This document shows, piece after piece, positions 1 through 32,160 of a stretch of DNA of 64,000 bases. This DNA is from Owenia fusiformis (lineage: Eukaryota > Annelida > Polychaeta > Sabellida > Oweniidae): positions 22,366,822 through 22,430,821 of the forward strand of contig CAIIXF020000008.1 of assembly GCA_903813345.2 (NCBI GenBank). Reading direction: 5' to 3'. How positions within the stretch are numbered: position 1 is the stretch's first letter; the number at the start of each line of letters is the position of its first letter. The position numbers and the translations under genes were made by a program. Below the pieces are notes generated by a model that did not search any database, was not told where the DNA came from, and saw only the letters and a program-made list of their open reading frames with translations.

Positions 1-327
1 CCTTTGCCACCTCTACCAACCCAAGTACCCCTACAAAGGCCAGTACCACCACCCATGCATTCAGTTCCTCAGATGCCTCCAACATCAATGCATCATGTGC
101 AGAGAAATGGGCCACCCATACCAATGTCTATGTCTCAGATGCCTGTACCCACACATTCTCATTCACAACTAGGTGCTCCCCATAATTTATCACAGATCTC
201 TGTACCTATGCACACTCAGAGACCTGGACCAGCACACGCTCATAGTTCTGCAGTGCATGTAAATATGGAACAGTACTATGGAACACCTTCTGCACCCAGG
301 GATATATTCAACTACTTTAAGTTATGA
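1..327 (+). CDS. Terminal exon 1 (partial, C-terminal tail only)
   Basis: The window opens inside this exon, in frame from base 1. What remains is the low-complexity Pro/Met/His/Ser-rich linker (PLPTQVPLQRPVPPPMH) and the family's conserved C-terminus (NMEQYYG, then RDIFNYFKL), ending in TGA at 325-327. The zinc fingers lie left of the window. It is closest to exon 3: the first bases match 4799 onward almost exactly, which marks them as a recent duplicate or converted pair. Only 425 bp separate its stop from the acceptor of exon 2, so its 3'UTR must be short or overlap the next exon. Confidence 0.85.
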   Translation, partial: PLPPLPTQVPLQRPVPPPMHSVPQMPPTSMHHVQRNGPPIPMSMSQMPVPTHSHSQLGAPHNLSQISVPMHTQRPGPAHAHSSAVHVNMEQYYGTPSAPRDIFNYFKL

Positions 328-752
328 TCATAAGAGGTGATAACCAAATTCAATTTTTCTAAAACTGGGCCAATCAAACCAGCATAGATTCTTCACTCAG
401 TCCATATGTTTGGATGGTTCAAGATAAATCAAAACAACACTACCAAACATAAAAGAATGAGTTACTGTTATGCAAATGATTGCCCCAAAACTGTTATTAG
501 GTGACATTAAAATTAATCAAAGAAACTAGAAATATCAAAATTGATGGGAAAACTCTCCAGATAGTCTCCAAACCTTTTGTAAAGTGCATATGCAAGCTAT
601 TGAAATTGTGCTTATCAGAAAATGCTGCTTGCCATAAACTGCATTTGAAACTGACAAAAGTAAAATGCATTCTTAAAGCTGTAGTATGAAAAACACCAAA
701 TGGTACATCTAACACATTTTAATAAATAAAATAGTGTTCTTTTTATTTGCAG
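328..752 (+). other. 3'UTR of exon 1 and acceptor region of exon 2
   Basis: This AT-rich noncoding spacer contains no convincing ORF. It ends in a T-rich tract and a TTTGCAG acceptor (AG at 751-752). Two overlapping AATAAA hexamers are at 721-730, only 21 bases before that AG. Confidence 0.6.
721..730 (+). terminator. Poly(A) signals of exon 1 inside the exon 2 acceptor region
   Basis: AATAAATAAA gives two overlapping canonical hexamers. They are the only such signals between the exon 1 stop (327) and the exon 2 acceptor (752). Cleavage 10-30 nt downstream would fall in or just past the exon 2 polypyrimidine tract, so exon 1 polyadenylation and exon 2 splicing are probably mutually exclusive. 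Use of the signal is inferred. Confidence 0.5.
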
Positions 753-1738
753 GATTGAACCGATACATAACAAGCAAGGATGGTATTACAATGACCTATC
801 ACTGTGATAAATGTAGTGAGGTTTTCGACCAAGCTAAAGGCTTGTCCACTCATAGGAAGAAAATGCATGGGCTTGTTGACTTTATCTGTAATATATGTGA
901 GGCAACATCTAAAACACATCACTATTTTGCGGAACATATGTATTTTGTGCATTACTATGATGGCAAAGGGTATCATAAATGTGATGTGTGTGGAACATCA
1001 TTGCGTCATAAGTCAGCATTAGCAAAGCATATGTTGATACATAAGCAAGAGAAACCTCATATGTGTTCTACATGTGGCAGGGCTTTTACACAGTCCAGTA
1101 CACTGAAGACACATGAAGAGATTCATATGACTGATGCAGAAAAAACACTTGTATGTGCAATATGTAATAAAAAATTTGGACGTCGGACTACTTTTAAATT
1201 ACATGTTAAAGGACATAGTAAATCTCATCAGTGTGCTTATTGTGGCCTAAGATTCTCACGTCAAGGACACATGAAGCGTCATATTCAGACACAGCATTCT
1301 AGCGAGGAAATTGCAGCTGCCGCCAGAGAAAAGGCGAGAATACACTCACAAAATCGTAAAACAAAGCGCCATAAAAAGACAGCAATTTGTGAATCACAAG
1401 CCTCAAATATCTTAAAGGATGTGAAACATTTAGAGTCTCAAGAGCAAAGCTATGTTAGTAATGAACAAGTGCAACAGCATTTTATGCCAGGAGTAAAACC
1501 AAATGAATCAGCACAACAAACTTGTGTACCTGAACCAGATGAACAATCCAGACAAGATGTCTATGTATCCAATACACCACATTTGGATAGTTTAACCCCA
1601 GTGTACCATAATAATGCTCTTCCACAGGGGTTAGACCTTAGTGTTACTAGGGAACAATATGTTCAAGGGCAACTCCGACCTTTAGCTTACACCAACATGG
1701 AGCAAATCAGCTGGCCTGTGTTCCCCCAAAATGATTGA
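753..1738 (+). CDS. Terminal exon 2: six C2H2 fingers, divergent tail with a GLDLS motif
   Basis: The exon follows a TTTGCAG acceptor and reads (x)-L-N-R-Y-I-T for 327 codons plus a split first codon. It has six C2H2 fingers, starting YHCDKC, FICNIC, HKCDVC, HMCSTC, LVCAIC and HQCAYC. The fifth has no counterpart in sister exons, and finger 2 has the standard 12-residue Cys-His spacing that sisters have lost. The final finger (RFSRQGHMKRH) resembles the sisters' invariant RDAHVKR finger. The Pro/His linker and NYFKL end are absent; instead there is a polar tail with GLDLS at 1628-1642 and a short NMEQ remnant near the stop. The role is inferred to be sequence-specific DNA binding. The divergent tail suggests a different cofactor, and the GLDLS motif resembles the CtBP-docking motif of HIC1. 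Confidence 0.85.
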
Positions 1739-3959
1739 AAAGAGGAGATTGTTGTATTTTTTTTTATTTGTAACATTTTGGTTTTTAGAATGATTGAAAC
1801 TGTACATAATGTAGAGATATTTACGATTTAGATCTACATTCAGTACATACTTTATTCTATAACTTAACTAGTTTGATTTGAGGGTTAGAACATTTTACCA
1901 TGTTAAGAATATTTTAAATAGTTATTTATACACATTCATACTTGTTCAATGCCATACCAGTTTGTTTACCTTCTATTGAATTTAATCTTATTGACATTTT
2001 AAGAAACTTAATTGTCATAGTTTTATTGAGTACCAATCATAACTTGTACATGCTTGGTAGATTAAGATGTAATTATTACATACTTTGATATCATGTTCTA
2101 CAAAAACCAAGAACCGAAATGAAATATATTTTATACAGTCTGTGTTGTCTATGATCTAACTTATGATGGCTTTTAAGCTTTTTATAGGGTTCTTGAACTA
2201 TCTTTAAATATTAATTTTAAAATCTACAGGTTACTCTACAGGTTACTTTATACATACATCAAATATTGCCAGAAATTAACCCAAATATTGCATTGTAGTC
2301 GTCATTTACTATCAGTTTTTTTCATTCTTATCAGAACCAAAGTAAATGCTAATGTTCAACCCAACTGTTTATATATACATAAATTAATATATACATATAT
2401 ATAGCTAGAATTAATTGATTGAGACTGGTTATATTTAAGGTTCTTGTGTTTGTTACATAGTCAGGTCTTTACAATGAAGAAATGAAATGAAAAGTATGTT
2501 ATCCTTTACTAATGTTGAGTACAGTAGAAATATGATAGTATGACAAATTTTTATTCATGTTTACTATTCAAAGGAGTTACAAAAATTACAGCTGATTTTT
2601 TGTATTCGCTTTTTCAAACCATACTTCAAAAGTTGGGTAGCTTGTTACCTTTTTATACAGGTAATTTACTGATGTAGGGTAGAGAATATGTGTAGCATTA
2701 GCAATTAGCATGCTTTGATAATTAAAAACAATAAATGTAGTATACAAATAAACCTTTTTTATTATTTATTTATTTAATTATCTGTAGGTGAATATAAGCG
2801 ATGTAGTGGCAGATTCATGGGTACAAATGTGCATCAATCCTAAAATCACACTAAATGCACAAAATGGTGTGGAATTCCTCATATAATCCTAAGCATACAA
2901 TGTATTAAGTGCAGCATCTTAAAGCTTTATCTATATCTGACGTATGCTGTTTTTAGTAGTGGGGGCTATGTTGGTACGATCAGACTAGTGTCCTAAATTT
3001 AGCAAAAACAGTGATTCATATCCTAATAAGGCTCATCTAGAGCCATCTGGTTCACACTTTCAGGAATTGGTCTAATACATTGACCCAAGAAACATATGGA
3101 TGAATGAAGCATGTTTTGGGTCTTTGCATCAGACTGTTTCAAAAATGAAATGCAGGTTCAAAAACATAGTACATATATGATAGCAATTCAAAGTTAATCG
3201 CTACTCTACCTGTCATTATTTGAGTGATGAATATACCAGTCTAATACATAACCCCAAGAAAATACATTTCATAACTTACAGTATTCACTTCATATATCTA
3301 GTCTAGTCTAATGGAATTAGTAAAGGCCATCTTTTTAAATAAAGATTCCAAATATAGACCCCCTTAACATGGATCGCTCTAACAAGAGAAAGAATAGGGT
3401 TTCGCTGAAAATTCACATCTTCGATAATATGCTCAATTACCAGTGACTGATTTTTTGTCCTTGGCATATTGAAATGGTTTTGCTATTTAGAAACCTTTTG
3501 CTGAGACACCAGCTGACCACAAATTGGAATTACAACTGATGGCACCATAAATATAGACACACTGTACTAATTATTATGTTTATGTAGTTTACATATGATG
3601 AATGGATACATTGGCCAGTGTCATAAATAAATGTGAACATATTGAAGTTTATTGCTTTTTCATTAGCCAATGTATATGTGAGGTTACCTGTGAGTAAGCA
3701 TGTGACCCCTTAGAAATAGAATGAAGACAGGAGACATCTGATAAAGTTGGAAATGTAATGTATCCAATTTTATCTTATATTGACACAAACACAAATTGTT
3801 TACATTTCATTCCAATCGATCCTGTTCTTTGTAACTTCATTTTGCTAATTTAAATTTTCCAATCTTTGTTGTGAAATCTCAAAAGTCCTCTCATGTTTTA
3901 CATTCACAGTAAAATTATTCCAAAGCATGCTTATTCACAAGTATTATTTCTATTTTCAG
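1739..3959 (+). other. 3'UTR of exon 2 and intron before exon 3
   Basis: This 2.2-kb AT-rich noncoding stretch has no supported ORF. AATAAA signals at 2730-2735 and 2747-2752, followed by a T-rich run, are the likely 3' end of the exon 2 transcript. The 3' end is the polypyrimidine tract and TTTTCAG acceptor of exon 3. Confidence 0.5.
2730..2752 (+). terminator. Poly(A) signals downstream of exon 2
   Basis: Two AATAAA hexamers 17 bases apart precede a CCTTTTTTATT U-rich element, about 1 kb after the exon 2 stop. They are the first hexamer pair after that stop. Confidence 0.4.
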
Positions 3960-5125
3960 GGTTGAATCCATATGTTACGGATGATGGGGATACGGTGACA
4001 TACCACTGCGACAAATGCCCTGAAACGTTCGACGATCCTAAAAAATTAACCAAACATAGGCATGATGTTCATGGATTAGTGAAGTTGATCTGTAATATGT
4101 GTGACGCTTCATTAATCAACATGCATTTTCATTATGCCAAACATTTATATTATACACATTATTTTGATGGCAAAGGATGTTATGAGTGCTCTGTTTGTGG
4201 AAAGTTCTTAAGCTGTGAAGAATCCCTACAGAAACATTTGAAAATTCATGATACACGAGAACTTCATACGTGCAATACATGTGGTCAGAGGTTTACCCTC
4301 GCAGCCAATCTCAAAACCCACGAGAATTCACACATGAACACACCCCATGTGGCCAGAAATCGGCTTGACGATTCAAAGAAGACGCATCAATGTGTCCATT
4401 GTGGCTTGCGATTCTCTCGTGATGCACATGTGAAACGTCACATCCTCACGCAGCATTCCAGTGCAGCAGTTGTGGAAGCAACAAGAGAAGTTGCCCGGAA
4501 ACATATTAGGGATCATCGAACCAGAAAAGGATGTGTTCCTAAGCGTGGTCCTGGTTTTATGCCTAAAATAGAGGGAGAAACAGCAGCCCAAGCAAGAGCA
4601 AGGAGAAAAGCAAATAAGAAGATAGCCCAGGCTGCAGCTGCTGCAATGAGGGAAGCACGACAAGCTAATGCCCAAGCGCAGGCACAGGCTGCTGCACAGG
4701 CTCAATCTCAGCCTATTGCACTGGATGGACAAAACCAGCAAAGCCAGCATGAGTCTATACCACAACATAATTCACACAGTTCACTCTCTCAAGGCCCTCC
4801 TTTGCCACCTCTACCAACCCAAGTACCCCTGCAAAGGCCAGTACCACCACCCATGCATTCAATCCCCCAGATGCCCTCAACATCAATGCATCATGTGCAG
4901 AGAAATGGGCCACCCATACCAATGTCTATGTCTCAGATGTCTACACCTACATATTCTCATTCACAACTGGGTAGTCCTCCCATGCATTCTCAGATCTCTG
5001 TACCTATGCATACTCAGAGACCTGGACCAGCACACGCTCATAGTTCTACAGTGCATGTCAATATGGAACAGTACTATGGAGCACCTACGGCAACCAGGGA
5101 TATATTCAACTACTTTAAGTTATAA
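3960..5125 (+). CDS. Terminal exon 3: five C2H2 fingers (type A)
   Basis: The exon starts after TATTTTCAG and has 387 codons. Fingers: 1 YHCDKCPETF, 2 LICNMCDAS, 3 YECSVCGKFLSCEESLQKH, 4 HTCNTCGQRF, 5 HQCVHCGLRFSRDAHVKRH. Finger 2 has 13 rather than 12 residues between its second Cys and first His. A basic stretch with RARRKANKK (a possible nuclear localisation signal) leads into an Ala/Gln-rich helix, then the PLPTQVPLQRP linker rich in Pro, His and Met, and the NMEQYYG / RDIFNYFKL end. Finger 5 helix residues R(-1), A(2), H(3), R(6) would favour G-rich DNA by the general C2H2 code, which is inference. The closest relative is exon 1. Confidence 0.9.
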
Positions 5126-7662
5126 TATAAAAACAGTATGACTGATTGATTGATCACTGCTAGCTATTAATGCAGTTAACAATAAGATATCTTACATCTG
5201 GTGTAATGTGTTTACCCGCAGTTTAAAATAGTTTGGTCAAAGGCCAAGAGGTAAATTGCAACTGAACATAACAACATTGCATTTGAAAATCTTGTAGATT
5301 TGCAAATCAAGCATAAATTGTGATTCAGGCTGGAAAATAACTTCTGGATTAAACTAGTACTAGGTCTGCAAAATGATGATAAATCTCAAAAGCATGTTTT
5401 TTGGTTGATGTTTGTGAGATGTGTATATGTATTTCTGGCTAAATGGAAACCTCAGTTGAAAAAGTTGGGCAGCCTTTGAACATAAATAGATTATTTAATT
5501 TTTTGGGGAATTTCCTGACTGCTTTTTATTATCATTTTCTTTAGTCTTAATAGCTTGATTAATATGAGTTGATGATACCATTATATTGAAAATCATCATG
5601 TCATGTCCTCTCAATACATTTTATGACAAAGAGAAACATTTGTTGAATCTAATACATGAACTGTTCTTCTTCTGCAATGCGATATACACAAGGTTTTCAT
5701 ATGACATTTCTGTCATATATTTATATTTTTTTCTGATTATATCAAAGATGGGAAAGATTGTGTATTGCTACAAGTTTTTTTTTACATTTTACTGTTGTGG
5801 TTTTATAGATATGAAATAAAAAGCAGTGTCATGGTGACCCTACATGTTCAGGAATTGAATTTAACCTCCAACAATAAACAATATATGCACCTAGACTTAT
5901 TATGTTTAAGATTACCAAATTTTTGTATACTGTAGTTTCTTGAGTGAGATTCAAAGCAGGTTAAGTACCTGTGAGGCATTGGGCAAATGTGGGGCTTGAT
6001 ATGCATTTGAGCTTGTCCATATTGGTAGTCATAATAAGCTGGTCAAATATGAAATAAAACCAATACATCGTTGTCTGGAACAAAAACAATTATTAATTCT
6101 TTTGGCATCAATTGTTCGAAATGATTATATCATAATAGTGTACATTTCTCATAACTTAGTAGAATTAGTACATGTAATAAAGTATATTAGGAGTGAATTG
6201 CATGTAAAAAAAAGTATAGCCTGTAACTTAAAGAAGCATATTAATGTAAAAATTAGTATTTTAGTGATATTGTTCATTGTGATATCATATCACATTCTGT
6301 AATGAACAACTTGCAAAAATGACACTGACAGTGTGGAAATTACTATGGAACAATAAGTTTAATTACAGTAGATACAGCCAAAAACAAGTGTAAATTAATG
6401 AAAAATGTATTCATTCTATAGGTGTAGGTTTATACATACAAGTACATATTATATATGAGATGTTTGTACTTAATTTAGTGATGAAGTGAATAAAATTATC
6501 ATCAGTTTCTTTTTCATGCTAGGGAATAATTTATTTAGACTCCTTCTGTGAGTACATGTTTCAAAATGGTCTACCCTTTGATATTCTCATTTTGAATTTA
6601 GGTATTTGGATAAATTGTGTAAAGTATATTTATTCTTCATAGTTAGTATTTATGCTTTGAAAGAACATAAGAATGTTCTTTGTAATTCTTCAGAATCTTG
6701 AAAGTTTGAGAATTTTTAAAATAGGATAGATAGATACTTAATTGTTATTGCTAAAGTAGGTTAGAAGTTAGATGTGTGTGTAGATTTAGTATGACTTGAT
6801 GATATCTATAGGCAAATAAATAAATTAGTAGAAATACTTAAAATACACTGTTTATTGTTAATTCAGAGATAGAAAAGACTACATAAACCAGTAAAACTGG
6901 TGTTTGTTCTTCTAAAAAGTGATGGGAAGTGTTTGACTTCAATAAACAATTGGTCACTGGACTCTGAAAAGTGTTCTGCTTACGGAGATATTCCAATTTA
7001 GAGGTCTTACTCTATACTAATGTTAACTTGTTAATAAATAGATTTCCACATGTGCTGATCCAGCTTGTTTAAATCTCATGATAACTGAAATATTTTCTGA
7101 GGTCAATAGAGAGTACAAAAACATGTGGATTAACACATGATTGAGCATGTTAGGAACTAACAACATCTGACATATACTTCTTGTTTGTTTGATTGTAAAT
7201 CATTGTTTTGTTATCTTTACCTGGTTTGTTGCACAATAAAGAAATGATTGAACACAAATATGTACATTTAGAAACTCCAGTTAATAACATGGTATAGCAT
7301 GTTAAAGGTGGCAGGGTAATCAATGGCAGATGATGGTACTTCTGTAACTCCTTTATAGTACAGTTACAAGTATCTCATCAATTACTTGCCTGAATGACAA
7401 CAACTTGGCTTATTACAACAATGCAAACATCTAAAGATGCACAAGAAAAGCAAACAATACTGATACTAAAAATTGATGATTATACTATAAAAACCTACCT
7501 AATCCAAGCCATTGATTATCATTGCAAAGCATTATAGTTACTCTGAATCCTGCTCTGCTTTACACCTATGTACATATTTGAATTCAACGATGTGCAGTTC
7601 AAGACAAACTGGATAAAGTATAGTCTAAAACAATGATTAACTCTATGTACTTTTTATTGCAG
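5126..7662 (+). other. 3'UTR of exon 3 and intron before exon 4
   Basis: 2.5 kb of AT-rich noncoding DNA. Candidate poly(A) signals AATAAA are at 5815-5820 and 5873-5878. The ORFs at 5586-5819 and 6102-6302 look like chance openings in AT-rich sequence. I see no transposon or tandem repeat here. Confidence 0.45.
5815..5878 (+). terminator. Poly(A) signals downstream of exon 3
   Basis: AATAAA at 5815-5820 and again at 5873-5878, about 700 bp past the exon 3 stop. Confidence 0.4.
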
Positions 7663-8564
7663 AGCACCACCAGTTCATCGAGTACTTGCCATCTGGTAGT
7701 AAAAGATGGACATGTGACCAAGAGAACTGCGATGCCATCTTCAGGATGCCAAAAGAATTACTTGAACACTTGCTGTTGGAACATGGGCTTGATAAACCCC
7801 TTAAATGTCGCACTTGTGGTCGCATTAGCTCAAATATGGATAACTTTGGTCGACATCTCTATTCCCATTTTGGAAATCAATTAACTCATGAGTGTCAAAT
7901 GTGTAATAAAAAGTTTCGTGAAGTTTTGTTGCTTAGGCGACACATCAGAACTCACACTGGTGAGAAACCACATATGTGTACACAATGTGGACGTAGATTT
8001 TTGAAGCTTGCCCATCTAAAAGAGCATGAAGCGACACATCTTAAGAGCCATGAGCGGCCATATAAATGTGACAAATGTGCCAGGGCTTTCCCATCACGTG
8101 ACAAGTATAAAAGACACATGAAAACCCATGAAAGGCTCTATCAGTGTCCAATTTGTGGGAAAAGGTTTGGGCGGTCGCAACACTTGAAAAGCCATGCAAT
8201 GATCCATACTGGAGAAAAGCCATATCATTGCAATGTCTGTGGAATAGGCTATACAGATATTAGAGGATTTAAAAAACACCAGGAAAAACACAAATGTGAT
8301 GAGAAATCCATACCTGTGAATTCAACTGACAATAATGCAGTCAAATCTGAGGATTTCAAACAGCAAATTATGTTGGATAAAACCAAACCAAATATATTAC
8401 ATGTTAGTGATGCAGTCCCTGTTGCCATGGATGCCTTCCGAAAATTTAATGATCCAACAATTTTTATCCCAGCTGCGCAACCCAGTACCCAAAATAGTTC
8501 AGGCAGTTTCAATCTCCAGGGCATAGACTACAGCATCATACACCATTCATATGATGTTCAATAA
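7663..8564 (+). CDS. Terminal exon 4: seven C2H2 fingers, unrelated to its neighbours
   Basis: It starts behind TTTTTATTGCAG and opens HHQFIEYLPSGSKRW, with no [LM]-N-P-Y leader, yet in the same splice phase as all other array exons. It has seven C2H2 fingers. The first is unusual (CDQENC, four residues between the Cys pair). The next six begin LKCRTC, HECQMC, HMCTQC, YKCDKC, YQCPIC and YHCNVC. Two TGEKP linkers (TGEKPHMC, TGEKPYHC) give the classical poly-finger DNA-binding layout. The tail of about 95 residues is polar and lacks the Pro/His linker and NYFKL end. The shared phase and strand suggest it is another alternative end of the same gene; a separate gene whose 5' exons lie elsewhere cannot be excluded. 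Confidence 0.8.
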
Positions 8565-9418
8565 GTGGATATAATTTCATGACATTAAAAGTGACTTTAT
8601 TTGACTATTAGTTTATTCTTCAGTGTGTTTTAACTCAAATAAATTAATTGCTATGTTCAGTAAGCTTTCTAGCTCATGTATGTGCATTAGAATTATATTG
8701 ATTTTACCAATTGTAATGATATATATCCAGAACTGAATTTGTAATAAAATATTGATTGAACATAATGCTTTTTTCATGAGTCAAATGGAATCTAGTAAAA
8801 GTGGAAGTGTGATCCAGCTGGTGTGACGCTGTAATAATGGGCAGGGTTATGGTGATATTCTGGTTAATATGTATTGTAATGTTACCATTTGTGCTTTTAA
8901 TAAAGGAGAATAATTTGATATTTGAAAAATACATAGTATACAACAAATAAAAATAGTTCATAACATAATTTTGAAATCTAAATATGCAAAATGTTAGTTA
9001 ATACTAAACCGTTATCAGGTCCATTTGATTTAAATCTGGATGACAAAACATTATAATAAAAACCAATTAATTATAATTATAATAGAAATACGATGTTGTA
9101 GATATTGCTATTAGTTAATATTTCACATCCATACATGAAACGGAGTCCTACATTTTATCACACTACTAGGAAGCTCAATGCACTCCCAACATTGTCAGTA
9201 TAATGACTTATAAGGCAAAACAGCAACAACAAGCAGAAAGATGGAAAATTCTTAAATAGTAAGAAACTACTGCATGTATTGACTGTCAACATATTTTTAC
9301 AGTTTATTGCCATTTTATTTATTGTTGTGTACCTAATAATTGTTTATCATCCATAAATTGATGTTTTTCAATGCAGTTTTATTATTGAGTACTAATAGTA
9401 TTAATTTTCTATTTTCAG
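8565..9418 (+). other. 3'UTR of exon 4 and intron before exon 5
   Basis: 854 bp, AT-rich. AATAAA signals at 8638-8643 and 8743-8748 would end the exon 4 transcript within 200 bp of its stop. The rest is featureless up to the CTATTTTCAG acceptor. Confidence 0.5.
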
Positions 9419-10548
9419 GTTTGAATCCTTACGTTACAAATGATGGACAAACTGTAACTTACCACTGCGACAAATGCCCGGAGACTTTCCTTGATCCTAA
9501 AAAATTGACCAAACATAGGAGAGATGTTCATGGATTATATAAGTTGATATGTAATATGTGTGATGCATCTTTAATGAACATGCATTTTCATTATGCGAAA
9601 CATTTATACTATACACATTATTTCGATGGGAAGGGATGTTTTGAGTGTAAGACCTGTGGCAAGTTCTTAAGTTGTGAAGAATCTCTGCAGAGGCATATGT
9701 TAATACATGATACTCGGGAAATTATACAGTGTCATGATTGTGGCCAGAAGTTTACAATGGCTGCGAATCTGAAAATACATCAAGAGCTGCATAAGGACAA
9801 TCCGAACCACCAGGCTAGAAATCGTTTAGACGAGTCCAAGAAGACTCACCAGTGTGTACATTGCGGAGTGCGTTTTGCCCGTGACGCCCATGTGAAACGT
9901 CACATCCTCACACAGCATTCAAATGCACATGTTGTAGAAGCTACAAGAGAGGAGGGAAGAAAACGTATTCGTGCACATAGAGATAAGAAGGGGATAATTC
10001 CCAAACGTGGTCCTGGATTTATGCCAAAGATAGAGGGTGAGACGTCTGCTCAAGGAAGGGCTAGGCGAAAGGCAAATAAGAAGATCGCACAGGCAGCCGA
10101 AGCTGCAATGAGAGAGGCGCGAGAAAAATTTGGTGCTCTAGCAGCTCAGCAGCAACAAAAACAAAAACAGCATGAACCAGCACAATATGATCCCATCCCA
10201 GCACACTCATCACACTCTCTACCTTCTCCTTTACCCACCCAGGTACCATTACAAGGACCAATGGCACCCCCCATGCATCAACTCCAACCTCAGATGGCTC
10301 CTGCATCAATGCCTCAGCCATCACATTCTCATTCATATTCACACACACAGCTAGGTGGTCTCCCCCAACCAGGTGGTCTTCCTCCACCAAATCCCATGCA
10401 TAACCAGATATCTGTGCCCATGCACTCTCAGAGACCAGGACCACCTCATGCCCACAGTTCATCTATGCCACAAATGCATGTCAATATGGAACAGTACTAT
10501 GGAGGAGGTTCAGCACCTAGGGACATATTTAACTACTTCAAGTTATGA
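9419..10548 (+). CDS. Terminal exon 5: five C2H2 fingers (type A)
   Basis: 375 codons after a TATTTTCAG acceptor, opening LNPYVTNDGQTVTYHC. Five fingers follow the exon 3 pattern: finger 2 has the 13-residue spacing, finger 3 reads FLSCEESLQRH, finger 4 is IQCHDCGQKF with both His kept (KIHQELH), and finger 5 is RFARDAHVKRH. The basic RARRKANKK block is followed by a Gln/Lys run (QQQQKQKQ), the PSPLPTQVPLQGPM linker, a His/Ser/Tyr stretch, and NMEQYYGGG with RDIFNYFKL. The first about 230 bases are almost identical to exon 6 and the last about 100 bases to exon 7, while the middle is clearly diverged. Confidence 0.9.
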
Positions 10549-14710: not shown

Positions 14711-15843
14711 GTTTGAATCCTTACGTTACGAATGATGGGCAAACTGTAACTTACCACTGCGACAAATGCCCGGAGACTTTCCTTGATCCTAAAAAATTGA
14801 CCAAACATAGGAGAGATGTTCACGGATTATATAAGTTGATATGTAATATGTGTGATGCATCTTTAATGAACATGCACTTTCATTATGCGAAACATTTATA
14901 CTATACACATTATTTCGATGGGAAGGGATGTTTTGAGTGTCATATCTGTGGAAAGTTCCTTAGTTGTGAAGAAGCCCTTCAGAGACACATGCTTATTCAT
15001 GAAACTAGAGAAATTCATCAGTGTAAAACTTGTGGTCAGAAGTTTACAATGGCTGCTAATCTAAAAATTCACCTTGAGCTCCATGGGGACAAACCACATG
15101 TTGCTAGAAATCGTTTAGATGATTCAAAGAAGGTTCACCAGTGTGTTCATTGTGGATTGAAGTTTGCCCGTGATGCCCATGTGAAGCGTCACGTTCTAAC
15201 TCAACATTCAAGTGCAGAAGTTGTGGAAGCAGTCAGGGAGGAAGGGAGAAAGCGTTTAACAAATAATAGAACAAAAAATGTATTCACTAAACGTTACTTT
15301 CCTGGTTATATTCCAAAGCCAGAGGGAGAGACCTCCACTCAAGGAAGGGCTAGAAGAAAGGCCAATAAGAAGATGGCTGAAGCAGCAAGAGCTGCAATGC
15401 AAGAAATTAAAGAAGCTAATGCTCGTTCAGAAGCATATAAGCAAAGCCAATTGGAAAAGCAACAGAAAAGCAATTCTACTGCCCAACAACTTCCTGCCCA
15501 ACAACCTCAGTCCCTTCCTTCTCCTCTACCTACCCAGGTGCCTTTACAAAGACCAATGGCACCCCCCATGCATCAACTCCAACCTCAGATGGCTCCTGCA
15601 TCAATGCCTCAGCCATCACATTCTCATTCATATTCACATACACAGCTAGGTGGTCTCCCCCAACCAGGTGGTCTTCCTCCACCAAATCCCATGCATAACC
15701 AGATATCTGTCCCCATGCACTCTCAGAGACCTGGACCACCTCATGCCCACAGTTCATCAATGCCACAAATGCATGTCAATATGGAACAGTACTATGGAGG
15801 ACCTTCAGCAACTAGGGACTTGTATAACTACTTCAAATTGTGA
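14711..15843 (+). CDS. Terminal exon 6: five C2H2 fingers (type A)
   Basis: 376 codons after TTCTTTTCAG. Fingers 1 and 2 are identical in protein to exon 5 (CPETFLDPKKL; CNMCDASLMNMHF, 13-residue spacing). Finger 3 is HICGKFLSCEEALQRH, finger 4 HQCKTCGQKF with KIHLELH intact, and finger 5 LKFARDAHVKRHVLTQH. The spacer FTKRYFPGYIPKPEGE is shared with exons 7-9 rather than with exons 3 and 5, so this exon mixes both subfamilies. The linker is PSPLPTQVPLQRPM, and the C-terminus is RDLYNYFKL instead of RDIFNYFKL, the only such variant here. Confidence 0.9.
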
Positions 15844-17361: not shown

Positions 17362-18542
17362 GTTTGAACCCTTATGTTACGGATGATGGGAAAACAACGC
17401 TGTACCACTGTGACAAATGCCCAGAGACATGTTTCGACTCTTTAAAACTGAACAGACATAGGAGAGATGCTCATGGATTGAACAAGTTGATTTGTAACAT
17501 GTGTGATGCAGCTTTATCGAATACACACTATCAATTATTTTCAAAGCATTTGTATTACACACATTACTTTGATGGTAAGGGTTGCTTTGAGTGTGACATA
17601 TGTGGAAAGTTCCATAGCAATGAAGAAGCCCTGAAGCGGCATAAGGTAATCCATGAAACACGGACATTTCATCAGTGTAAAGTTTGTGGTCAGACATTTA
17701 CAATGTTGGCTAATCTCAAAATTCATCAAGAGCTATATGGAGACAAGCCCCATGTTGCTAGAAACCGTTTGGATCAAACGAAGAAGACACATCAATGTGT
17801 GCACTGTGGATTGAAGTTTGCCCGTGATGCCCATGTGAAACGTCACATTCTAACACAGCATTCAAATGCAGAAGTTGTAGAAGCAGTTAGGGAGGAAGGA
17901 AGAAAGCGCATCAATGTGCAGAGAAAGAGTCTGTTCACCAAACGTCACTTTCCTGGTTATATGCCTAAACCAGAGGGAGAGACCTCATCCCAAGGAAGAG
18001 CAAGAAGGAGGGCTAATAAGAAGATAAAACTTGCTCAGAAAGCTGCAATAGCAGAAGCAAGAGAGGCTAATGCTCGTTCATTGGCATACAAACAAAGCCA
18101 GCTTGAAAAGCAAAAGAAAAGCAATCCACCACCTGTCCAACAACCTCCAGCTCCTGCTCCTCATGTTCAACAAAATCAACAACCCCAGTCTCTACCTTCT
18201 CCTTTACCCACTCAGGTACCAATACAAAGACCCATTCCACCGCCCATGCACCAAATTCATTCTCAGATGCCTCCTGCATCCATGCCTCTTCCTCCTGCAT
18301 CTATGCCTCCACCAACACATTCTCATTCATATTCCCATACACAGCTAGGTGGTCTCCCCCAACCAAGTGGCCTCCCGCCACCTAACCCAATGCATAACCA
18401 GATATCTATTCCCATGCATTCTCAGAGACCTGAACCACCTCATGCCCACAGTTCATCTATGCCACAAATGCATGTCAATATGGAACAGTACTATGGAGGA
18501 GGTTCAGCACCTAGGGACATATTTAACTACTTCAAGTTATGA
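17362..18542 (+). CDS. Terminal exon 7: five-finger positions (type B), degenerate finger 4
   Basis: 392 codons, opening LNPYVTDDGKTTLYHC. Finger 1 is CPETCFDSLKL, with an extra Cys. Finger 2 (CNMCDAALSNTHYQLF) has 14 residues between Cys and His. Finger 3 is CDICGKFHSNEEALKRH. Finger 4 is CKVCGQTFTMLANLKIHQELY, where the last zinc ligand is Tyr instead of His. Finger 5 is the invariant LKFARDAHVKRH. Then come KRHFPGYMPKPEGE, RARRRANKK, a Pro/Gln linker with a duplicated PPASMP unit, and NMEQYYGGG / RDIFNYFKL. The segment at 17553-17690 is nearly identical to 31192-31330 in exon 9. Confidence 0.9.
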
Positions 18543-22558: not shown

Positions 22559-23560
22559 CTACAGTCCAATCGTTTCAACATTCATCCAACATCCGTTTTT
22601 CTCACATCCATTGTTGGGTTCTTTGTTTTTCGCATTATGCCACCCTCTGGCCATACGGGACTCCAGGGTCTCTACTGGTGAAGACCAACACTCATAGGTT
22701 ATGGGAATAACATCTCCCATATAGTTTGCTCCCTTTTTAAGTTTTAGTCTTGTGACATGGTTGGTAGTGGACCAAGCTTTGTGAACAAGCCGTTTTACAT
22801 GCTTATTCTTGCTTAGCTGGGCCGAAGGCTTGTTGCGTTTTTCCTTGTAGACTCGTAGACGTGGTTTGTTAACTCTTACTCGATTCTTCACTTCAAACGA
22901 CTTCAGTGTTTTCTTTGCCATTATGGCTAATCCCCTCTGTGTTGCATATAATGTGTCCACAGGGGTAGTTTGCACTTGTGCCTGCATTACATGGTTTTCT
23001 TCTGATATAACATCATATTTCTCTGTGTCACTGTTTTCCAACAGAACCACCCCTGCCTTCTCTGTGTCGGACCTTTCTACTGTAGAGTTGTCGGAGTCTG
23101 CATTTATTGCATTGTGAGTTTCCAGCAAGTTTTGAGAGGGGCTCACATTCAATGTCTCATCTTCACTGCTCATCTTGGCATCATGGCGAGTAAAAGCAGA
23201 TTCAAATTTAGGTGAGGATGGAACGGCTTTACCCCCTGCATTACCACTGTTATTTTGTAAAGTGGCATTCAGTTCTATTCTGAGTCTACGTACTTCTTGG
23301 TCATACTCCTTTATCTCCATACCAATTTGTTTGCTCTTCTGGAAATGCTCATTACACTTTCTTATTTTCTGATTGTTCATCTTCAGCCTGTTGATTTCCT
23401 CGGCCATACTGTTATACCTAATCCTCTGCTGTTTAGGAAATTCGTACAATTCTTCAAATAGGTCATTTGCTTCCTTCAATTCTTTGGTTTCATTTTCAGT
23501 TAATACTTTTATTTTAGTTCCTAATTCGGTAATCCTAGTATTGATAACCGAGTCCTCCAT
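22559..23560 (-). CDS. Gag-like coiled-coil ORF of the LTR element
   Basis: From the ATG at 23560 the ORF encodes 333 residues (MEDSVINTRITELG); the frame also stays open just upstream. Residues 1 to about 105 are heptad-like and rich in Glu, Lys, Leu and Asn, predicting a coiled coil. A Ser/Thr/Asp/Glu-rich middle follows, then a strongly basic segment (NKPRLRVYKEKRNKPSAQ) and a C-terminal part with Trp and two late Cys. There is no CCHC knuckle. It starts about 70 bp after the primer-binding site, where gag sits in LTR elements, which is the main reason for the gag-like call. A captured host gene is the alternative. The protein family is not recognised. Confidence 0.55.
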   Translation of the reverse strand: MEDSVINTRITELGTKIKVLTENETKELKEANDLFEELYEFPKQQRIRYNSMAEEINRLKMNNQKIRKCNEHFQKSKQIGMEIKEYDQEVRRLRIELNATLQNNSGNAGGKAVPSSPKFESAFTRHDAKMSSEDETLNVSPSQNLLETHNAINADSDNSTVERSDTEKAGVVLLENSDTEKYDVISEENHVMQAQVQTTPVDTLYATQRGLAIMAKKTLKSFEVKNRVRVNKPRLRVYKEKRNKPSAQLSKNKHVKRLVHKAWSTTNHVTRLKLKKGANYMGDVIPITYECWSSPVETLESRMARGWHNAKNKEPNNGCEKNGCWMNVETIGL

Positions 23561-23628
23561 TTCTTGAGTTGTGTTCACTTTCTAACAGAAGGCTCCCAGA
23601 TTCGTTTTTAAGAAAATATATCTATAAA

Positions 23629-23646
23629 ATCCTGGCAACGGCACCA
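23629..23646 (-). other. Primer-binding site of the LTR element
   Basis: TGGTGCCGTTGCCAGGAT on the - strand, one base inside the 5' LTR. It begins with TGG, the complement of tRNA CCA-3'. Which tRNA is not assigned. Confidence 0.6.
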
Positions 23647-23647
23647 A

Positions 23648-23855
23648 TGTAACAAATTATTGTCATAAAATATAATGTTGTGGCTCGTGTCGTCTAGTGG
23701 CAGTAACATAAAATGTTAGTTTGATTTCTATTTCTTTTATTGTTCATTGGTTAATATAACTTTACATGTCCTAAGTAATTTCCTGGTTGTAACCGACTGA
23801 TTATACTCTAAAACTCAACAACTGAATCTTACTCTGCAAAATCACACTGTCTCTA
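23648..23855 (-). repeat. 5' LTR (element orientation)
   Basis: Same 208-bp sequence as 19497-19704. On the - strand it ends TTTGTTACA, directly before the primer-binding site. Confidence 0.8.
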
Positions 23856-24038
23856 GTCAGTTTAGCATTGTAGACAAATATTTGATTTTTCCTAGTATTT
23901 TGACTAGATTTTGTTAGTGTTCTCTATGTTAATGATTAACTTTATAAAAGGAACAAACTATTAAGAGCTTTCTCTGTTTTATAACTTACGGTAGATCTTT
24001 AGTTTGGATGATGTACCAAAAACATCATTGTAAAAAAG

Positions 24039-24226
24039 TACAGTAACACCTGTCTGTTTCGAACACCACTAGGACCAGCCACGTGTTCAGATTAGCAGCT
24101 GTTCACATTTCAAGGTTTCTAAAGTCTGAGTCAGTGGGAGATAATATATTTGGAACACAGAAAAAAGTGTTCACATTGAGAGGTGTTTTAATTCGAGAGA
24201 TGTTCAGATATACAGGTTTCAGTGTA
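24039..24226. mobile_element. Tc1/mariner-like MITE
   Basis: Ends TACAGTAACACCTGTCTG and (reverse complement of the right end) TACACTGAAACCTGTATATC form imperfect terminal inverted repeats bounded by TA. Internal phrases such as GAACACCACTAGGACCAGCCA and GATTAGCAG(C/G)(T/A)GTTCACATTTC are typical of a widespread invertebrate MITE. A piece of the same family is at about 44660-44712. Confidence 0.6.
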
Positions 24227-24625
24227 GAAATATTCATTGTTTTATTCCGTAGATTTAGTGTACACATATCTTTGTTTTGTTATATGAGGGGTAGACTTAT
24301 CTAAGTGAAGCAGAATAGGTTTGCAAGTTTCAAAATTTTAGCAGCATAGTGGTTCTTTTTAAAATTATTTGATCAATTATTTTTGTATGACTTTCAAATT
24401 CATTTTGCAATCTCTCTATACAGAAAGGTGTCATTTTAACCATGTGTATCATGAATGAATAATGGTCCACTCCTCATATTTTCAATTGGAATGTGTATTA
24501 ATGTTCATATGTCTTTTAGTTTCAATTATGTAAATTGCTAAATGAATAACTCAAATGTAAAATATTTTATATTATTTCCTTTGGTTTCTGTAAGGTGCTT
24601 AAAGAGATTCATGTAATTATTAATA

Positions 24626-25052
24626 AGGCCATAAGAAGTCGATTCTTTGTTTTGTGTCCTGGCAAAATCCAAATCATGCAAGGGTACAAGGAAAACAAAC
24701 ACAAACTCAAGAAAAAACACAAACTTGTTTGCTGAGAAATGTATACATTTTATGGGCATAAAAAGGGATGACATACCAATTTGCAGTGATAACAAACCCA
24801 TATCTATACATTTTATACAATATATTTAAATATAGCTATTATTCAAGGGTAAAATAAGAAAATGCACAATGTATGTCAAAGTAATCAATAACACTGTCAA
24901 TTTTGACGCACATCAAATTATCTACCATTTCGTCTGATTCCGATTGAACGAAATGTGATGGAACTTTCAGACTCTTGTGTTTGTTTTTTCTGATTTACTC
25001 AAAATCGTGCAAGCAAGGGGACGCAAAACAAAGAATCTACTTCTTATGGCCT
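24626..25052. mobile_element. 427-bp foldback (MITE-like) element
   Basis: Inverted ends beginning AGGCCATAAGAAGT, then a variable base, then GATTCTTTGTTTTG, match over about 37 bp with few mismatches. There is no coding capacity, and no clear target duplication was identified. Confidence 0.6.
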
Positions 25053-26294
25053 AATGTAGAACTCGCTTCAAAAGTTTGATTGAATTTTTATTAAGAATCT
25101 GAATGAAATAAAAATTTATAATGAATTTCTAAGAATCTTTGAAATAAAAGTATGGTGAGGAATATAACAACTGAAAAATGAATAAAAAATGTATTTAGCA
25201 TAGTAGAAGTGTGAAATAAACTTAGTAAACTTCAACTGTAATGGTTCTGTTAATTGTTTTATTTGAACATTCGTCCAATGTTTATCCAATTTATTTTATA
25301 TTGTACTGAATTGATAAGACTATGCAGACTTAAAATCCTGTTAACATTTATGAGAAATGGGAGGTTGACTTTAAGAGATGGAGACATTGATTTGGTTAAG
25401 GTAGTGCAAGTACGTACATGTACTGTAGATTAAATAACCTGACTTATTAACTTTGGCTTGACTTAAAAATCATTCCACTAGATCCTCCATAAACAAAAAT
25501 AATATTTGTTACCTTTTCAATTTCAAATTGAACTAATGTTAATATACAAACGTTTGACTAATTGGAAAGTATGGAGAAATCAGTTGAATATGTAGTAAGA
25601 AGTAAAGTCTGAGATTCTGAATGCTGACATTATAACTCATTTGACCTATTTTAAGGGCTCTTCAACCACATTGTGACCAGTAATGTAAGATCGGGCAACC
25701 TTAAACTATAGATCCAACAATATGACCAGTTAATAAGTTTATGGGATTTTTGAAATGTTTAAATCCAAAGTTGCTTATTGATGGATGTTATGAAGTTGAT
25801 GTTGACATATGACTCCATTATTATTAGCATTTAGGGAGCCTACTCAGCCATACACAGAATTGTAAGATAAGGCGATAATGCACATAATTTTCTAAAAAAA
25901 TCTGTACTATGGGTACTTCTCTTTTAGACATTTAACATATGTGTTCTGGGTTATTTGTTCAGTTGTTAGATGGAAACTCTTTTTTGTTCATGTGATAAAT
26001 GTAAGGATAGCAATCTTGAATTCTGTTGGCTGTATCATGTTATTTATGAGTATGATTCCAGGAGGATTACTTATGAATCTACTTCAAATATAGTTGTTAA
26101 ATGCAGTTCATTTTAAGTGTTGTTCACCCTTTGCCTTGTTTAAGGTGTTTCTGCTTTTAACATTGTAGGCGTAGTTGTTGAATGGCAAATACCAAGCCCC
26201 TAAATGGTCAATTTGTAAAGTATGTTTAAAATGATGACATCATTTATGTTGAGGTTACTGAGGTATTTATAAAACTTATTTTATTTATTTTCAG

Positions 26295-27457
26295 GCATGA
26301 ATCCTTATGTTACGGATGATGGGAAAACAACGCTGTACCACTGTGACAAGTGCCCAGAGACATTTTTCGACTCTTTGAAAATGAACAGACATAGGAAAAA
26401 TGTTCATGGGTTGGTGAAATTAATATGTAACATGTGTGATGCAGCTTTATCAAACACACATTATCAATTATTTGCAAAGCATCTATATTACACACATTAC
26501 TTTGATGGTAAGGGATGCTTCGAGTGTAACATTTGTGGAAAGTTCCACAGCAATGAAGAAGCCCTTAAGAGACATCTGGTTATTCATGAAACGCGGACAT
26601 TTCACCAGTGTAAAATTTGTGGCCAGACATTTACAATGTTGGCTAATCTAAAAATCCATCAGGAACTTTATGGGGACAAACCACATGTTGCTAGAAAGCG
26701 TACCGATAACCTGAAGAAGTCACACCAGTGTGTTCATTGTGGATTGAAGTTTGCCCGTGATGCCCATGTGAAGCGTCACATTCTTACCCAGCATTCAAAT
26801 GCAGAAGTTGTCGAAGCAGTCAGACAGGAAGAAAGAAAGCGTATAAATGTACATAGAGACAAAAGAGCAGTTTTCTCTAAACGTCACTTTCCTGGTTATA
26901 TGCCAAAACCAGAGGGAGAGACCTCATCTCAAGGAAGAGCAAGAAGAAAGGCAAATAAGAAGATAAAAATGGCTGCTAAAGCTGCAATAGAAGAAGCACG
27001 AGAGGCTAATGCTCGTTCATTGGCATACAAGCAAAACTTATTGGAAAAACAACGAAAGAACAATCCTCCACCCTCTTCTGCCCATCAACCTCCTGCCCAG
27101 CCACCTCACCAACCTCAGTCTCTACCCTCTCCTTTGCCTACCCAGGTGCCTTTACAAAGACCAATGCCACCACCCATGCACCAGCTGCCTCATGATATGC
27201 CTCCAGTATCCATGCCTATCCCACCAGCGTCCATGCCTCCACCTACACATTCTCACTCCCATCCATATTCACATTCGCAACCAGGTGGTCTCCCACCACC
27301 AAATCCCATGCATAACCAGATATCAATTCCCATGCATTCTCAGAGACCTGGACCAGCACATGCCCACTCTCAAAGTTCTGGGATGCATGTCAATATGGAA
27401 CAATATTATGGAGGAGGTTCAGCTACCAGGGACATATTCAACTACTTCAAGTTATGA
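26295..27457 (+). CDS. Terminal exon 8: five-finger positions (type B), degenerate finger 4
   Basis: 386 codons after TTTATTTTCAG. The leader is MNPYVTDDGKTTLYHC, with Met where sisters have Leu. Finger 1 is CPETFFDSLKMNRH, finger 2 CNMCDAALSNTHYQLF (14-residue spacing), finger 3 CNICGKFHSNEEALKRH and finger 4 CKICGQTFTMLANLKIHQELY (Tyr for the last His). Finger 5 is the invariant LKFARDAHVKRH. The basic block RARRKANKK, a Pro-rich linker with SHSHPYSHSQPGG, and NMEQYYGGG / RDIFNYFKL follow. The in-frame Met is not taken as a start because the acceptor and phase match the other exons. Confidence 0.9.
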
Positions 27458-30400
27458 AAACTGTAGGCTTCATGTTGAAGCAAAATGATATTCATGTGCC
27501 ACAATAATTGATTTATCCATCCTTAAATTGAATGTCAAGAAATTATGTGATGCATTGGTAATATTTGTTTGGCAGTATTTAAGGAAGGATATTATTTACA
27601 AGGGAAAATCTTGCAGCTTAAATGTGGATGAGATAATTATTGAGATAAACCATAGATCTAAAATCACAAACTGATTTTGATTAAATTTATGTATTGTTAT
27701 TACGTATTGTATTGTTGTTAAGTGATTAGTAGGATTTTATGTCTCTCGCATCTTCCAAATTGTTTTTGAGAGTATTCAGTATTTACTAGAGAAAATATTG
27801 AAAAGTGTATCTCGAAGACATACTGCTATTGATGTTAAACAGTGGATCTTGAAGCAACGCTATAGTGCACAGTGTCATGAAAACAATTTTCAAAACCAAA
27901 AGTTGAATTGGTAATACGATTTTTAATGATAAAGGATAATTGTAATTTCACATTTATTTTATTGAACTTTATAACATTTTTATGTGTGATGTAACTAGTA
28001 ACTTGTGTAGCTTGTTATGTAGGCAAATGTCTGTTGTGGCTGTCTAATCGTTGGTTAGGTTATTATCAAATTGCTCTGCCCATTCCGATTGTTCAGTGAT
28101 ATACCATATTATAAAAGTAACAATGAAACAGTTTGCAGTCTGCGGTGGACCATTTGAAACCAGTTTGAAACCATTAACATTGTCAATGAGTATTCTGATT
28201 GATTATAAAGAATGGGGGAGTTTGAAATATATATGTGTTTATATATTATAATGTATGTGTGCATGCAAATTATATTTAACCATTAGGGTACAATATATTA
28301 GAACATATTTAATCTCTCATAGTTGTAGTCAGGGAAGGAAACTAAACATCCTGAACTTCCTCCGAATATAGAACTACACAAAGCATTAATATGCAAAATG
28401 TCATCTACCATTTGTTACAGATGCCAACCACCAAACATCAACCATCGAACACCAACCACTGAACACAACCACCATTCACAATAAGGTTTTAGACTAAAAC
28501 AATATATGTAACCACTTGTGGTTGTGACATGATTTTAACCTATGTTAGATGTATATTTGGGGGATGTTTCAATGATATGAATCTTGCATCAAGTCTCTGG
28601 ATCTCAACCTCACAGCCCTTTCTATTTCACCACATTGCAGAGGTGAAGGTTGTAGGAGGGTCACAAGAGCTTGATTCCAGATAACAAACAATTCTTAAAC
28701 AAAAGTAGGTGTATATTCTGTAGGTGTAGTTTTTACATATCATTACTTTGTCATCTGAGGAGTGGATGTTACATGAGGAGTAGATGATAAATTAAAGTTA
28801 AAAAGTGTCAAGATTTTCACTGATTAACCATATTATTGCTTTATTGAAATTTCTGATTCTGATGTCAAAAGGAAAGATGTCCACCCTTATGAAATTAGTA
28901 TTCATCTTTTAGTATTCACATTCAACAAGATTGAATGAATAACTTAAACTTTGAAATTATTAAACGTTCATTCAATCTTATTAATCTTACATGTAAAGTA
29001 TCAGTGGAACTAGTCCAATACTTCAAAAGTTTGATTGATTTAGAGCTTTTCAGAATGAAATTAGTGTGATTCAGCAATATAACTACTGAAAATGAATCAA
29101 TAGAAATTGAATATTAAACTTGAAAGTGTTTAATAAATGTAGTATTACTTCAATTATAATTGTTGTGTTCATTGTTTAAATGAATGGGCCAATTAATTTC
29201 AAGAAGTTTGCAAAAAGAACATAATATACAATAATTGACCATGATGAGCAATGCTTTTCACATGGTAAACCGGGCTGAATGGATTATTTGATTTATTATC
29301 TTTGACCTATACCTATAGGTTTACTACTGACACTTGCTCCAAATGGTCTACAAGTAAACTCCAATCATCTCTTTGTTTCTTTGATACAAATATATCCAAT
29401 CATCTCATTAGTGGTTTCCAAATGTTTGGATCAGTAAGCTGACTGTAGATGTTGCTGTGGATACAAAAGGGCCTCCAATTAATAAATGCAAAATGCAGCA
29501 TATAATCACTTTATGACATATCAGAATGATATCTTTAAAAAGCAAGTTACGTACAACAATGCCAATATATATTGAATTTTTACATTAATTTTACCTATTG
29601 ACATTGACCTTCCATGGCCTTTTTAACATAGTGACCTTGATTATTAAATAGTGACCTTGATCACAGCCTTTAATACAGATTTGCCATGTGTTGATTACTC
29701 TATGGCCTTGATATGATTTGATTACTCTATTACCTTAAAATGATTTAACTACTCTATGGCCTTTATATAATTTGATTACTCTATGACCTTGATATAATTT
29801 GATTACTGTGTGGCCTTGATATAATTTGATTACTCTATGACCTTGATATAATTTGATTACTCTATGACCTTGATATAATTTGATTACTGTGTGGCCTTGA
29901 TATAATTTGATTGCCATATGACCTTGATATAATTTGATTACTCTATGGTCTTTATAATTTTTGTTTTTACTTTATGACCTTGATATAATTTGATATTTTG
30001 TATGACCTTGATATAATTTCATTATTCTATGGCCTGGATATAATTTGATTACTCTTTGGCCTTGATATAATTTGATTACTCTATGGCCTTGGTATAATTT
30101 GATTTACTCTATGGTCTTTATAAAAAAAATTACTGTATGACCTTGATTTAATTTGATTACTCTATGGCCCTGATATAATTTGATTACTTTATGGCCTTTA
30201 TAAAAAAAATTTACTGTATGACCTTGATATAATTTGATTACTTTATGGCCTTGATATAATTTGGTTTCTCTTGGGCAGTGCCTGTTCCACAAAACCAAAT
30301 TTTGTAACCAAGACACTGATATATTACTTATACATGTTATAGTAAGACATGCTTTGATAAACATTTAAAATGTCAAATGTTGTATTAAATTGACAGTTAT

Positions 30401-31000
30401 ATAACGTACATCTTTCTCACAATAATGTGGCTTTATTTTTTTTATTTTTAAATTGTAATTATTATGTTGCCTTAATATTAATTGTTTGAGATTGTTTTTC
30501 AGTCAGAGATGTTCTTAAGCACATACAATTAATGCCGCTTTATACATACACGTATGTCTAACATTTGTCAATGTTTTTATTTTATTTTTTTTAATTCCAC
30601 CAATGCTAACACTTGTGGAAGAACAGTTAATTTCAATAGGAGGACGGAACAAATGATGATTTCAGTAGTGAAGAATATTTTGATATTTTGAAAATATTGA
30701 AAATTAAAGTGAAAGGCAACATAATCCACAAGTGTTGGCATTTAGACATAATCCCCAATGTTGTTTGTTTTTCCCATTCTTGTTGGTGTCCAAATATATA
30801 CAAATATACAATATGGAAATGAATGCTTTGTATAACAATTGCCATTTCTCTTTGAATTGTCATTTTAGCTGCCATTCTTGTAATCATATGAACAGTCTAG
30901 TTGTTTATTTGACTAAATATACATATACATATACATCATCACATCATCATCACTTCATATTTATGCAAAAAACATAAAACGGTTTTGTTTGTATTTTCAG
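27458..31000 (+). other. 3'UTR of exon 8 and intron before exon 9
   Basis: Noncoding and AT-rich. The flank carries TTTAACCATTAGGGTACAA (about 28276), shared with the flanks of exons 7 and 9, then the 27-bp minisatellite at about 29690-30265. A run of TATACA repeats lies just upstream of exon 9 (about 30916-30937), followed by the GTATTTTCAG acceptor. Confidence 0.5.
29690..30265. repeat. 27-bp minisatellite
   Basis: About 20 degenerate copies of a unit close to TATGACCTTGATATAATT plus TGATTACTC. Units vary mainly at GACC/GGCC and CTC/GTG. Because 27 is divisible by 3, the - strand stays open and reads VIKLYQGH(R/T) repeats; this is not taken as a gene. Confidence 0.85.
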
Positions 31001-32160
31001 GTTTGAATCCTTATGTTACGGATGATGGGAAAACAACGATGTATCATTGTGACAAGTGCCCAGAGACATTTTTTGACTCTTTAAAACTGAACAGACATAG
31101 GAAAAATGTTCATGGATTGCTCAAGTTGGTCTGTAACATGTGTGACGCATCTTTATCAAACACACACTATCAATTATATGCAAAGCATTTATATTACACA
31201 CATTACTTTGATGGTAAGGGTTGCTTTGAGTGTGACATATGTGGAAAGTTCCATAGCAATGAAGAAGCCCTGAAGCGGCATAAGGTAATCCATGAAACAC
31301 GGACATTTCACCAGTGTAAAATTTGTGGTCAGACATTTACGATGTTGGCCAATCTCAAAATTCATGAGGAGCTATATGGAAACAATCCACATGTTGCTAG
31401 AAAGCGTATGGATGACACAAAGAAAACCCACCAGTGCGTTCATTGTGGATTAAGGTTTGCCCGGGATGCCCATGTGAAACGGCATATTCTAACTCAGCAT
31501 TCAAATGCAGAAGTTGTCGAAGCAGTCAGACAGGAAGAAAGAAAGCGTATAAATGGACACAAAAATAAAAGACTTTTCACAAAACGTTACTTTCCTGGTT
31601 ATATGCCAAAACCAGAGGGAGAGACATCATCTCAAGGAAGAGCCAGAAGAAGGGCTAATAAAAAAATAAAACTTGCTTCTAAAGCTGCAATAGAAGAAGC
31701 ACGTGAGGCTAATGCTCGTTCATTGGCATACAAAAAAAGTCAGCTGGAAAAGCAACAAAAAAATAACCCACCTCCTGTCCAACAACCTCCTGCCCAACAA
31801 CCTCCTGTTCAACAACTTCAACAGCCTCAACACCCTCAGTCTCTACCTTCTCCTTTGCCTACTCAGGTTCCTTTACAAAGACCAATGCCACCACCCATGC
31901 ATCAACTGCCTCCAGAGATGGCCCAAGCATCAATGCCTCCACACACGCATTCTCATTCGCATCCTCATTCACATTCTCAACCTGGTGGTCTACCTCCCCC
32001 AAACCCCATGCATAACCAGATCTCAATTCCCATGCACTCTCAGAGACCAGGACCACCTCATGCCCACAGTTCATCTATGCCACAAATGCATGTCAATATG
32101 GAACAGTACTATGGAGGAGGTTCAGCACCTAGAGACATATTTAACTACTTCAAGTTATAA
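31001..32160 (+). CDS. Terminal exon 9: five-finger positions (type B), last of the array
   Basis: 385 codons after GTATTTTCAG, opening LNPYVTDDGKTTMYHC. Finger 1 is CPETFFDSLKLNRH, finger 2 CNMCDASLSNTHYQLY (14-residue spacing), finger 3 CDICGKFHSNEEALKRH, finger 4 CKICGQTFTMLANLKIHEELY (Tyr in place of the last His) and finger 5 LRFARDAHVKRH. RARRRANKK, a Pro/Gln linker (PPVQQPPAQQPP), a His/Ser stretch and NMEQYYGGG / RDIFNYFKL follow, with TAA as stop. A good donor (CAG|GTAAGC) lies 20 bases after the stop and could splice to an acceptor at 32713, so this exon may not be physically terminal. Confidence 0.9.

Follow-up and report, generated by a model that had tools for sequence, protein, structure and literature searches.

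The window analysed here, a stretch of 64,000 nt (C8:22366822-22430821), very probably contains the 3' half of a single BTB-zinc-finger gene in which a common front is spliced to one of 15 alternative last exons. In the gene model that we propose, a BTB exon, a linker exon and an exon with two fingers would make up the common front, and each last exon (hereafter end) would bring its own fingers, its own tail and its own stop. The junction would fall inside a finger-to-finger linker, joining the second common finger (H-S-G) to the first finger of the end (L-N-P-Y, compare the linker TGEKPY), so that the chosen end would extend the common finger array. All introns read were phase 1, and any end would therefore fit in frame. 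From this arrangement we infer that each junction is used in transcripts, mostly by splicing in cis, and that pairing and the binding of cofactors would fall to the BTB half, and DNA targeting to the chosen end. The genome searched comprised 498 Mb in 525 contigs; searches within it scored the best candidates only, and the resulting counts are lower bounds.

Nine plus-strand zinc-finger open frames were listed between window positions 1 and 32160, one of them cut by the window start. The whole array consisted of 15 last exons over approximately 43 kb, with six complete exons and the start of A07 preceding the window (Table 1); the nine ends counted by the sequence-only reading describe the window correctly and fall short of the locus. 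All 15 ends were located on the same strand as the BTB front, and no minus-strand zinc-finger frame was found within the array (frames of at least 100 aa and at least 150 aa). The window's ORF list contained no further zinc-finger frame of at least 100 aa after A15, which was taken as the last end. To locate the exon starts, all AGs from the start of each frame up to its first finger were scored, blind to phase, with approximate weights. In 15/15 array exons the top-scoring AG was in phase 1, so that the exon would give 2 bases. The remaining AGs of the same stretches were spread over phases 1, 2 and 0 (12, 14 and 13, respectively), and in control window frames free of zinc fingers the counts were 21 (phase 1), 19 (phase 0) and 17 (phase 2). 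The claim of nine zinc-finger last exons in one phase, eight of them complete, was thus recovered by a scan that ignored phase. The acceptor sites named earlier were also the right ones, with each exon starting one base later because the G of the AG had been given as the coordinate.

Strict C2H2 fingers numbered from 3 to 12 per exon across the 15 last exons, a range that replaces the 5-7 finger positions per end proposed before. Pfam zf-C2H2 matches were obtained in each of the three window exons scanned (A08, A10 and A13; 3 of 9). The NYFKL terminus, described earlier as shared, was found in seven of the nine window ends, equal to 7/15 for the locus, and was absent from A08 and A10. In the alignment of A13-A15 the fourth finger position lacked the second His. 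Poly(A) hexamers occurred within 1.5 kb past 14 of the 15 ends (none for A12), and were set aside because AT-rich DNA yields several per end by chance (estimate approximately 4 per 1.5 kb).

Table 1. Predicted exons of the common front and of the array of alternative last exons. Window positions are counted from the first base of the window; C8 positions refer to the contig.
Feature	Position	Strand	Properties	Basis
BTB exon	C8:22351389 (ATG)-22353078	+	ends G/GTAAGT, phase-1 donor	
Linker exon	from C8:22353270	+	two candidate donors, both phase 1	donors read by eye
2-finger exon	C8:22354021-22354221	+	ends CATTCAG/GTGAGA, phase-1 donor in finger linker	
A01-A06	between C8:22356197 and 22365114	+	six complete last exons	ORF and acceptor scans
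A07	C8:22366061-22367148; 3' part = window 1..327	+	NYFKL end; starts 760 bases before window	ORFs, acceptor scan
A08	window 753..1738	+	6 strict fingers, own stop, no NYFKL	phase-1 acceptor, finger patterns, Pfam zf-C2H2
A09	window 3960..5125	+	NYFKL end	phase-1 acceptor, finger patterns
A10	window 7663..8564	+	7 strict fingers, divergent, no NYFKL	phase-1 acceptor, fingers, Pfam zf-C2H2
A11	window 9419..10548	+	NYFKL end	phase-1 acceptor, finger patterns
A12	window 14711..15843	+	NYFKL end	phase-1 acceptor, finger patterns
A13	window 17362..18542	+	NYFKL end, degenerate fourth finger	phase-1 acceptor, fingers, alignment, Pfam zf-C2H2
A14	window 26295..27457	+	NYFKL end, degenerate fourth finger	phase-1 acceptor, fingers, alignment
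A15	window 31001..32160	+	NYFKL end, degenerate fourth finger	phase-1 acceptor, fingers, alignment

The BTB front exon was located approximately 14 kb upstream of the window. A genome-wide BTB search placed a plus-strand match at C8:22352346-22352696 (among the best 150 of 196 candidates), and the open frame of the front exon scored 43.5 bits against PF00651 (cut-off 20.5). Between 22.27 and 22.64 Mb of C8 this was the one plus-strand BTB match among the best 150 of 196 candidates. The 2-finger peptide had a single match at the locus and five genome-wide among the best 150 of 166 candidates. A common upstream exon, probably BTB, had been predicted from the window, and the exon found carries the domain on the expected strand, ends in a phase-1 donor and is followed by the 2-finger exon. 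One base upstream of its ATG there is an acceptor-like TTTCAG, and a 5' non-coding exon is therefore likely. The solved BTB structure closest by sequence was ZBTB7A, a weak match (E = 0.0081). With a BTB front and C2H2 ends, the locus would be classed as a BTB-zinc-finger gene in the broad sense, the link between front and ends resting on phase and layout.

The gaps before A02-A08 measured 425-966 bp, and those lower in the array were longer, up to 7752 bp before A14. When the 15 gaps were compared at E up to 1e-4, no 5' exon or block shared near any acceptor was found, in line with the earlier claim that the ends have no 5' exon of their own. Two matches were obtained, one of 33 bp and one of 107 bp; each paired the gap before A14 with that before A15, at least 1 kb from the acceptors. 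An in-frame ATG between the acceptor and the first Cys was absent in 9/15 ends and present in 6/15, and these six could start independently, which counts against the one-gene model. The early ATGs and the long lower gaps would suit a variant of the same gene in which the ends are separate transcripts with promoters of their own, trans-spliced to the BTB front, and extracts of two sources provide an insect precedent in mod(mdg4) and partly in lola (PMC12692577, PMC4667647). We consider this unlikely here, as 15/15 ends are on the strand of the front, the gaps before A02-A08 are shorter than 1 kb, and no sequence was found to recur from gap to gap as a promoter repeated with each unit would.

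For the analysis of selection, the contact positions of each finger were taken as -1, 2, 3 and 6, following what we take to be the Zif268 numbering. Pooled over the seven NYFKL ends, omega was approximately 0.12 for the finger region, 0.26 for the tail and 0.18 for the contact positions, and the contact residues of these ends formed few, near-identical sets. Purifying selection acts on the seven NYFKL ends, whose contact residues are nearly fixed. Since seven of the nine window ends have nearly the same contact residues, the number of DNA specificities may be smaller than nine. In A13-A15 the contact residues of the strict fingers were identical, and no nonsynonymous contact differences were counted (pS 0.40). 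Diversifying contacts in the window's array were considered and rejected: the mean difference was 0.244 at contacts vs. 0.275 elsewhere, and 6383 of 10,000 shuffles equalled or exceeded the observed value. The ends would have arisen by tandem duplication, with the seven NYFKL ends subsequently maintained by purifying selection. The identical contacts of A13-A15, together with their degenerate fourth finger and a 135-aa fragment without credible acceptor in a sister array, raise the question of whether the gene is real but several of its ends are redundant or decaying, so that the number of relevant isoforms would be well below that of exons. That reading appears distinctly unlikely, since 15/15 ends are open with phase-1 acceptors and the pooled finger-region omega of A13-A15 was 0.10.

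Six other loci on C8 had the same donor position, and five of them carried arrays. In total, 66 phase-1 ends were found in six arrays, including the 15 at the window's locus. At all seven loci (the six arrays and locus E) the GT of the 2-finger exon was 7 bases from the first base of the last His codon; six of the donors fitted GTRA, and that of locus F was GTAC. We infer that the junction is common to the seven loci by descent, in which case the layout would predate the window's locus. Near 12.14 Mb (C8:12060001-12170000) a head-to-head pair of BTB frames (57% identity over 287 aa) was found with opposed zinc-finger arrays. In the minus-strand array (B-), 24 of 25 zinc-finger frames were phase-1 ends, the exception being the 135-aa fragment, which was dropped from the count; the 20 kb that follow this array yielded no zinc-finger frame. 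The plus-strand array, read to 12.17 Mb, had at least six ends (6/6 zinc-finger frames in phase 1). One end from each of the opposed arrays, M22 and P06, both located at or close to the distal limit of their array as read, shared 82% identity over 206 aa, a likeness pointing to an inverted duplication or exchange.

The remaining loci were read over shorter distances. Locus C (33.10 Mb, 40 kb read) had nine credible phase-1 ends among 11 zinc-finger frames, with one frame dropped because it was cut by the slice and one because it had no credible start. At locus D (26.66 Mb, 36 kb read), 9/11 plus-strand frames were phase-1 ends when the 2-finger exon was excluded; the frames dropped were one that was cut, a 112-aa fragment whose best AG was in phase 0, and an antisense frame with two finger-like patterns. 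Locus F (14.31 Mb) had 3/3 phase-1 ends in 16 kb, and it had no BTB match among the best 150 of 196 candidates, which counts against the one-gene model. At locus E (33.57 Mb) a BTB frame was accompanied by a 2-finger exon; the locus was not counted as an array, as no credible end was found in the 13 kb read. C8 holds 26 of the best 150 BTB candidates (of 196). A further BTB frame was observed on the minus strand at C8:22348178, head-to-head with the window's gene (region C8:22335688-22348672). Its closest BTB was that of locus D (44%), and a minus-strand zinc-finger frame with a best acceptor in phase 1 was found downstream of it at C8:22335688.

Zinc-finger genes often occur in tandem clusters, and the ends of the window could be independent genes of this kind, with 5' exons and promoters of their own, that lie downstream of a BTB gene by chance. 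Tandem copies inherit their splice phase, and the shared phase from which independent genes had been judged unlikely is for that reason a weak argument by itself; the judgement nevertheless stood, and independent tandem genes are ruled out as highly improbable by the single BTB and 2-finger exons (no second plus-strand BTB among the best 150 of 196 candidates, and one 2-finger match at the locus among the best 150 of 166) and by short gaps before A02-A08 that share no block, with donor phase equal to acceptor phase in 15/15 and the arrangement repeated at five other arrays.

Contact residues behaved differently in parts of the sister arrays. In ends M14-20 of array B-, contacts had pN 0.273 and pS 0.205, and the other finger columns pN 0.085 and pS 0.280; contact omega was below 1 in 6/16 finite pairs. 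In a shuffle test of five small groups of related sequences (the window's array included), and thus five tests, the variability of contact columns exceeded that of the other finger columns in M14-20 (18/10,000 shuffles) and P01-05 (6/10,000), was borderline in M06-12 (459/10,000) and was not raised in M02-04 (2079/10,000). These data suggest that contacts in some groups of the sister arrays may be under positive selection.

The best-known genes that combine a single BTB front with many exchangeable ends are insect lola and mod(mdg4), to which the locus had been likened; the group to which their BTB belongs is reported as arthropod-specific. Extracts of one source describe lola as having BTB-containing common exons and approximately 20 ends, most with fingers, joined by cis and trans splicing (PMC1947980). 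The likeness, here judged from genomic layout, is that one 5' BTB part is joined to one of many alternative 3' ends, mostly or entirely zinc-finger exons, and by this layout the mechanism would be lola-like. According to extracts of another source, lola and mod(mdg4) have a TTK-type BTB with an N-terminal FxLRWN motif, and the TTK motif was not found in searches of Annelida or Mollusca (PMC11426971). In contrast, FxLRWN was absent from 7/7 BTB open frames examined here, this locus included, and the BTB is therefore not of the lola group. The analogy thus holds for the common BTB front and the many ends, and not for the BTB itself. Two further differences from lola are that the common part here also carries two fingers and that several loci on one contig have this layout. 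Judged by its sequence, the locus is predicted to work like lola, outside lola's BTB group.

The comparison with mod(mdg4) again concerns a common BTB front with many alternative 3' ends. In the extracts available, mod(mdg4) has at least 30 ends, mostly FLYWCH, partly on the other strand and trans-spliced (PMC4667647, PMC12692577). The ends described here are instead C2H2, as judged by Pfam on 3 of the 9 window exons, whose lists contained C2H2-type and other finger families only and no FLYWCH, and 15/15 are on one strand whereas some mod(mdg4) ends are on the opposite one. Clusters of KRAB-ZNF genes resemble the present arrays in the tandem duplication of zinc-finger exons and in the faster change of contact residues seen in two sister-array groups. 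In KRAB-ZNF clusters every copy forms a complete gene and encodes an effector domain of its own, whereas here many ends would share one front.

The sequence-only reading had assumed a molluscan host. On C6:27033687-27048438 we obtained three matches over the cut-off to PF16915, which we take to be the annelid extracellular haemoglobin-linker family (one match had an internal stop), and an annelid is the better guess. PF14830, presumably the molluscan haemocyanin family, gave no match, and control genomes were equally silent. In the CC-licensed PMC literature (titles and abstract openings), no such locus in an annelid, a mollusc or another spiralian was found among the matches listed. The occurrence of this layout on a non-TTK BTB, in an apparent annelid and at several loci (more than 60 ends counted), suggests more than one evolutionary origin for the exchange of DNA-binding domains by last-exon swapping. 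A wider proposal, tentative and rather unlikely as a whole, is that genes with one BTB front and many zinc-finger ends arose independently in a non-arthropod worm lineage, as a family on one chromosome that serves as a repertoire, in which the window's array is conserved and others change their DNA-reading residues under positive selection. If true, a repertoire like that of the KRAB-ZNF genes would be packed in single genes and sampled by the choice of last exon. The presence of conserved and diversifying contact arrays in one genome would make the reason for having many ends testable. Automated annotation will probably break loci of this kind into several models or cut them short.

Several other features were observed in the window. 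A minisatellite of period 27 (21 copies) was present at window 29691-30271, between A14 and A15, and another of period 44 (12 copies) at 38207-38742, beyond the array. The long gap before A14 contained a 340-aa minus-strand open frame (window 22559-23581); a Pfam search at E 0.01 gave no match to it, and the GC skew nearby was -0.18. On the minus strand of window 42633-52782 there were exons of a putative guanylate-binding or atlastin-like GTPase gene, with GBP_C below the cut-off in 42636-43121 and PF02263 at E = 4.4e-12 in 52471-52782.
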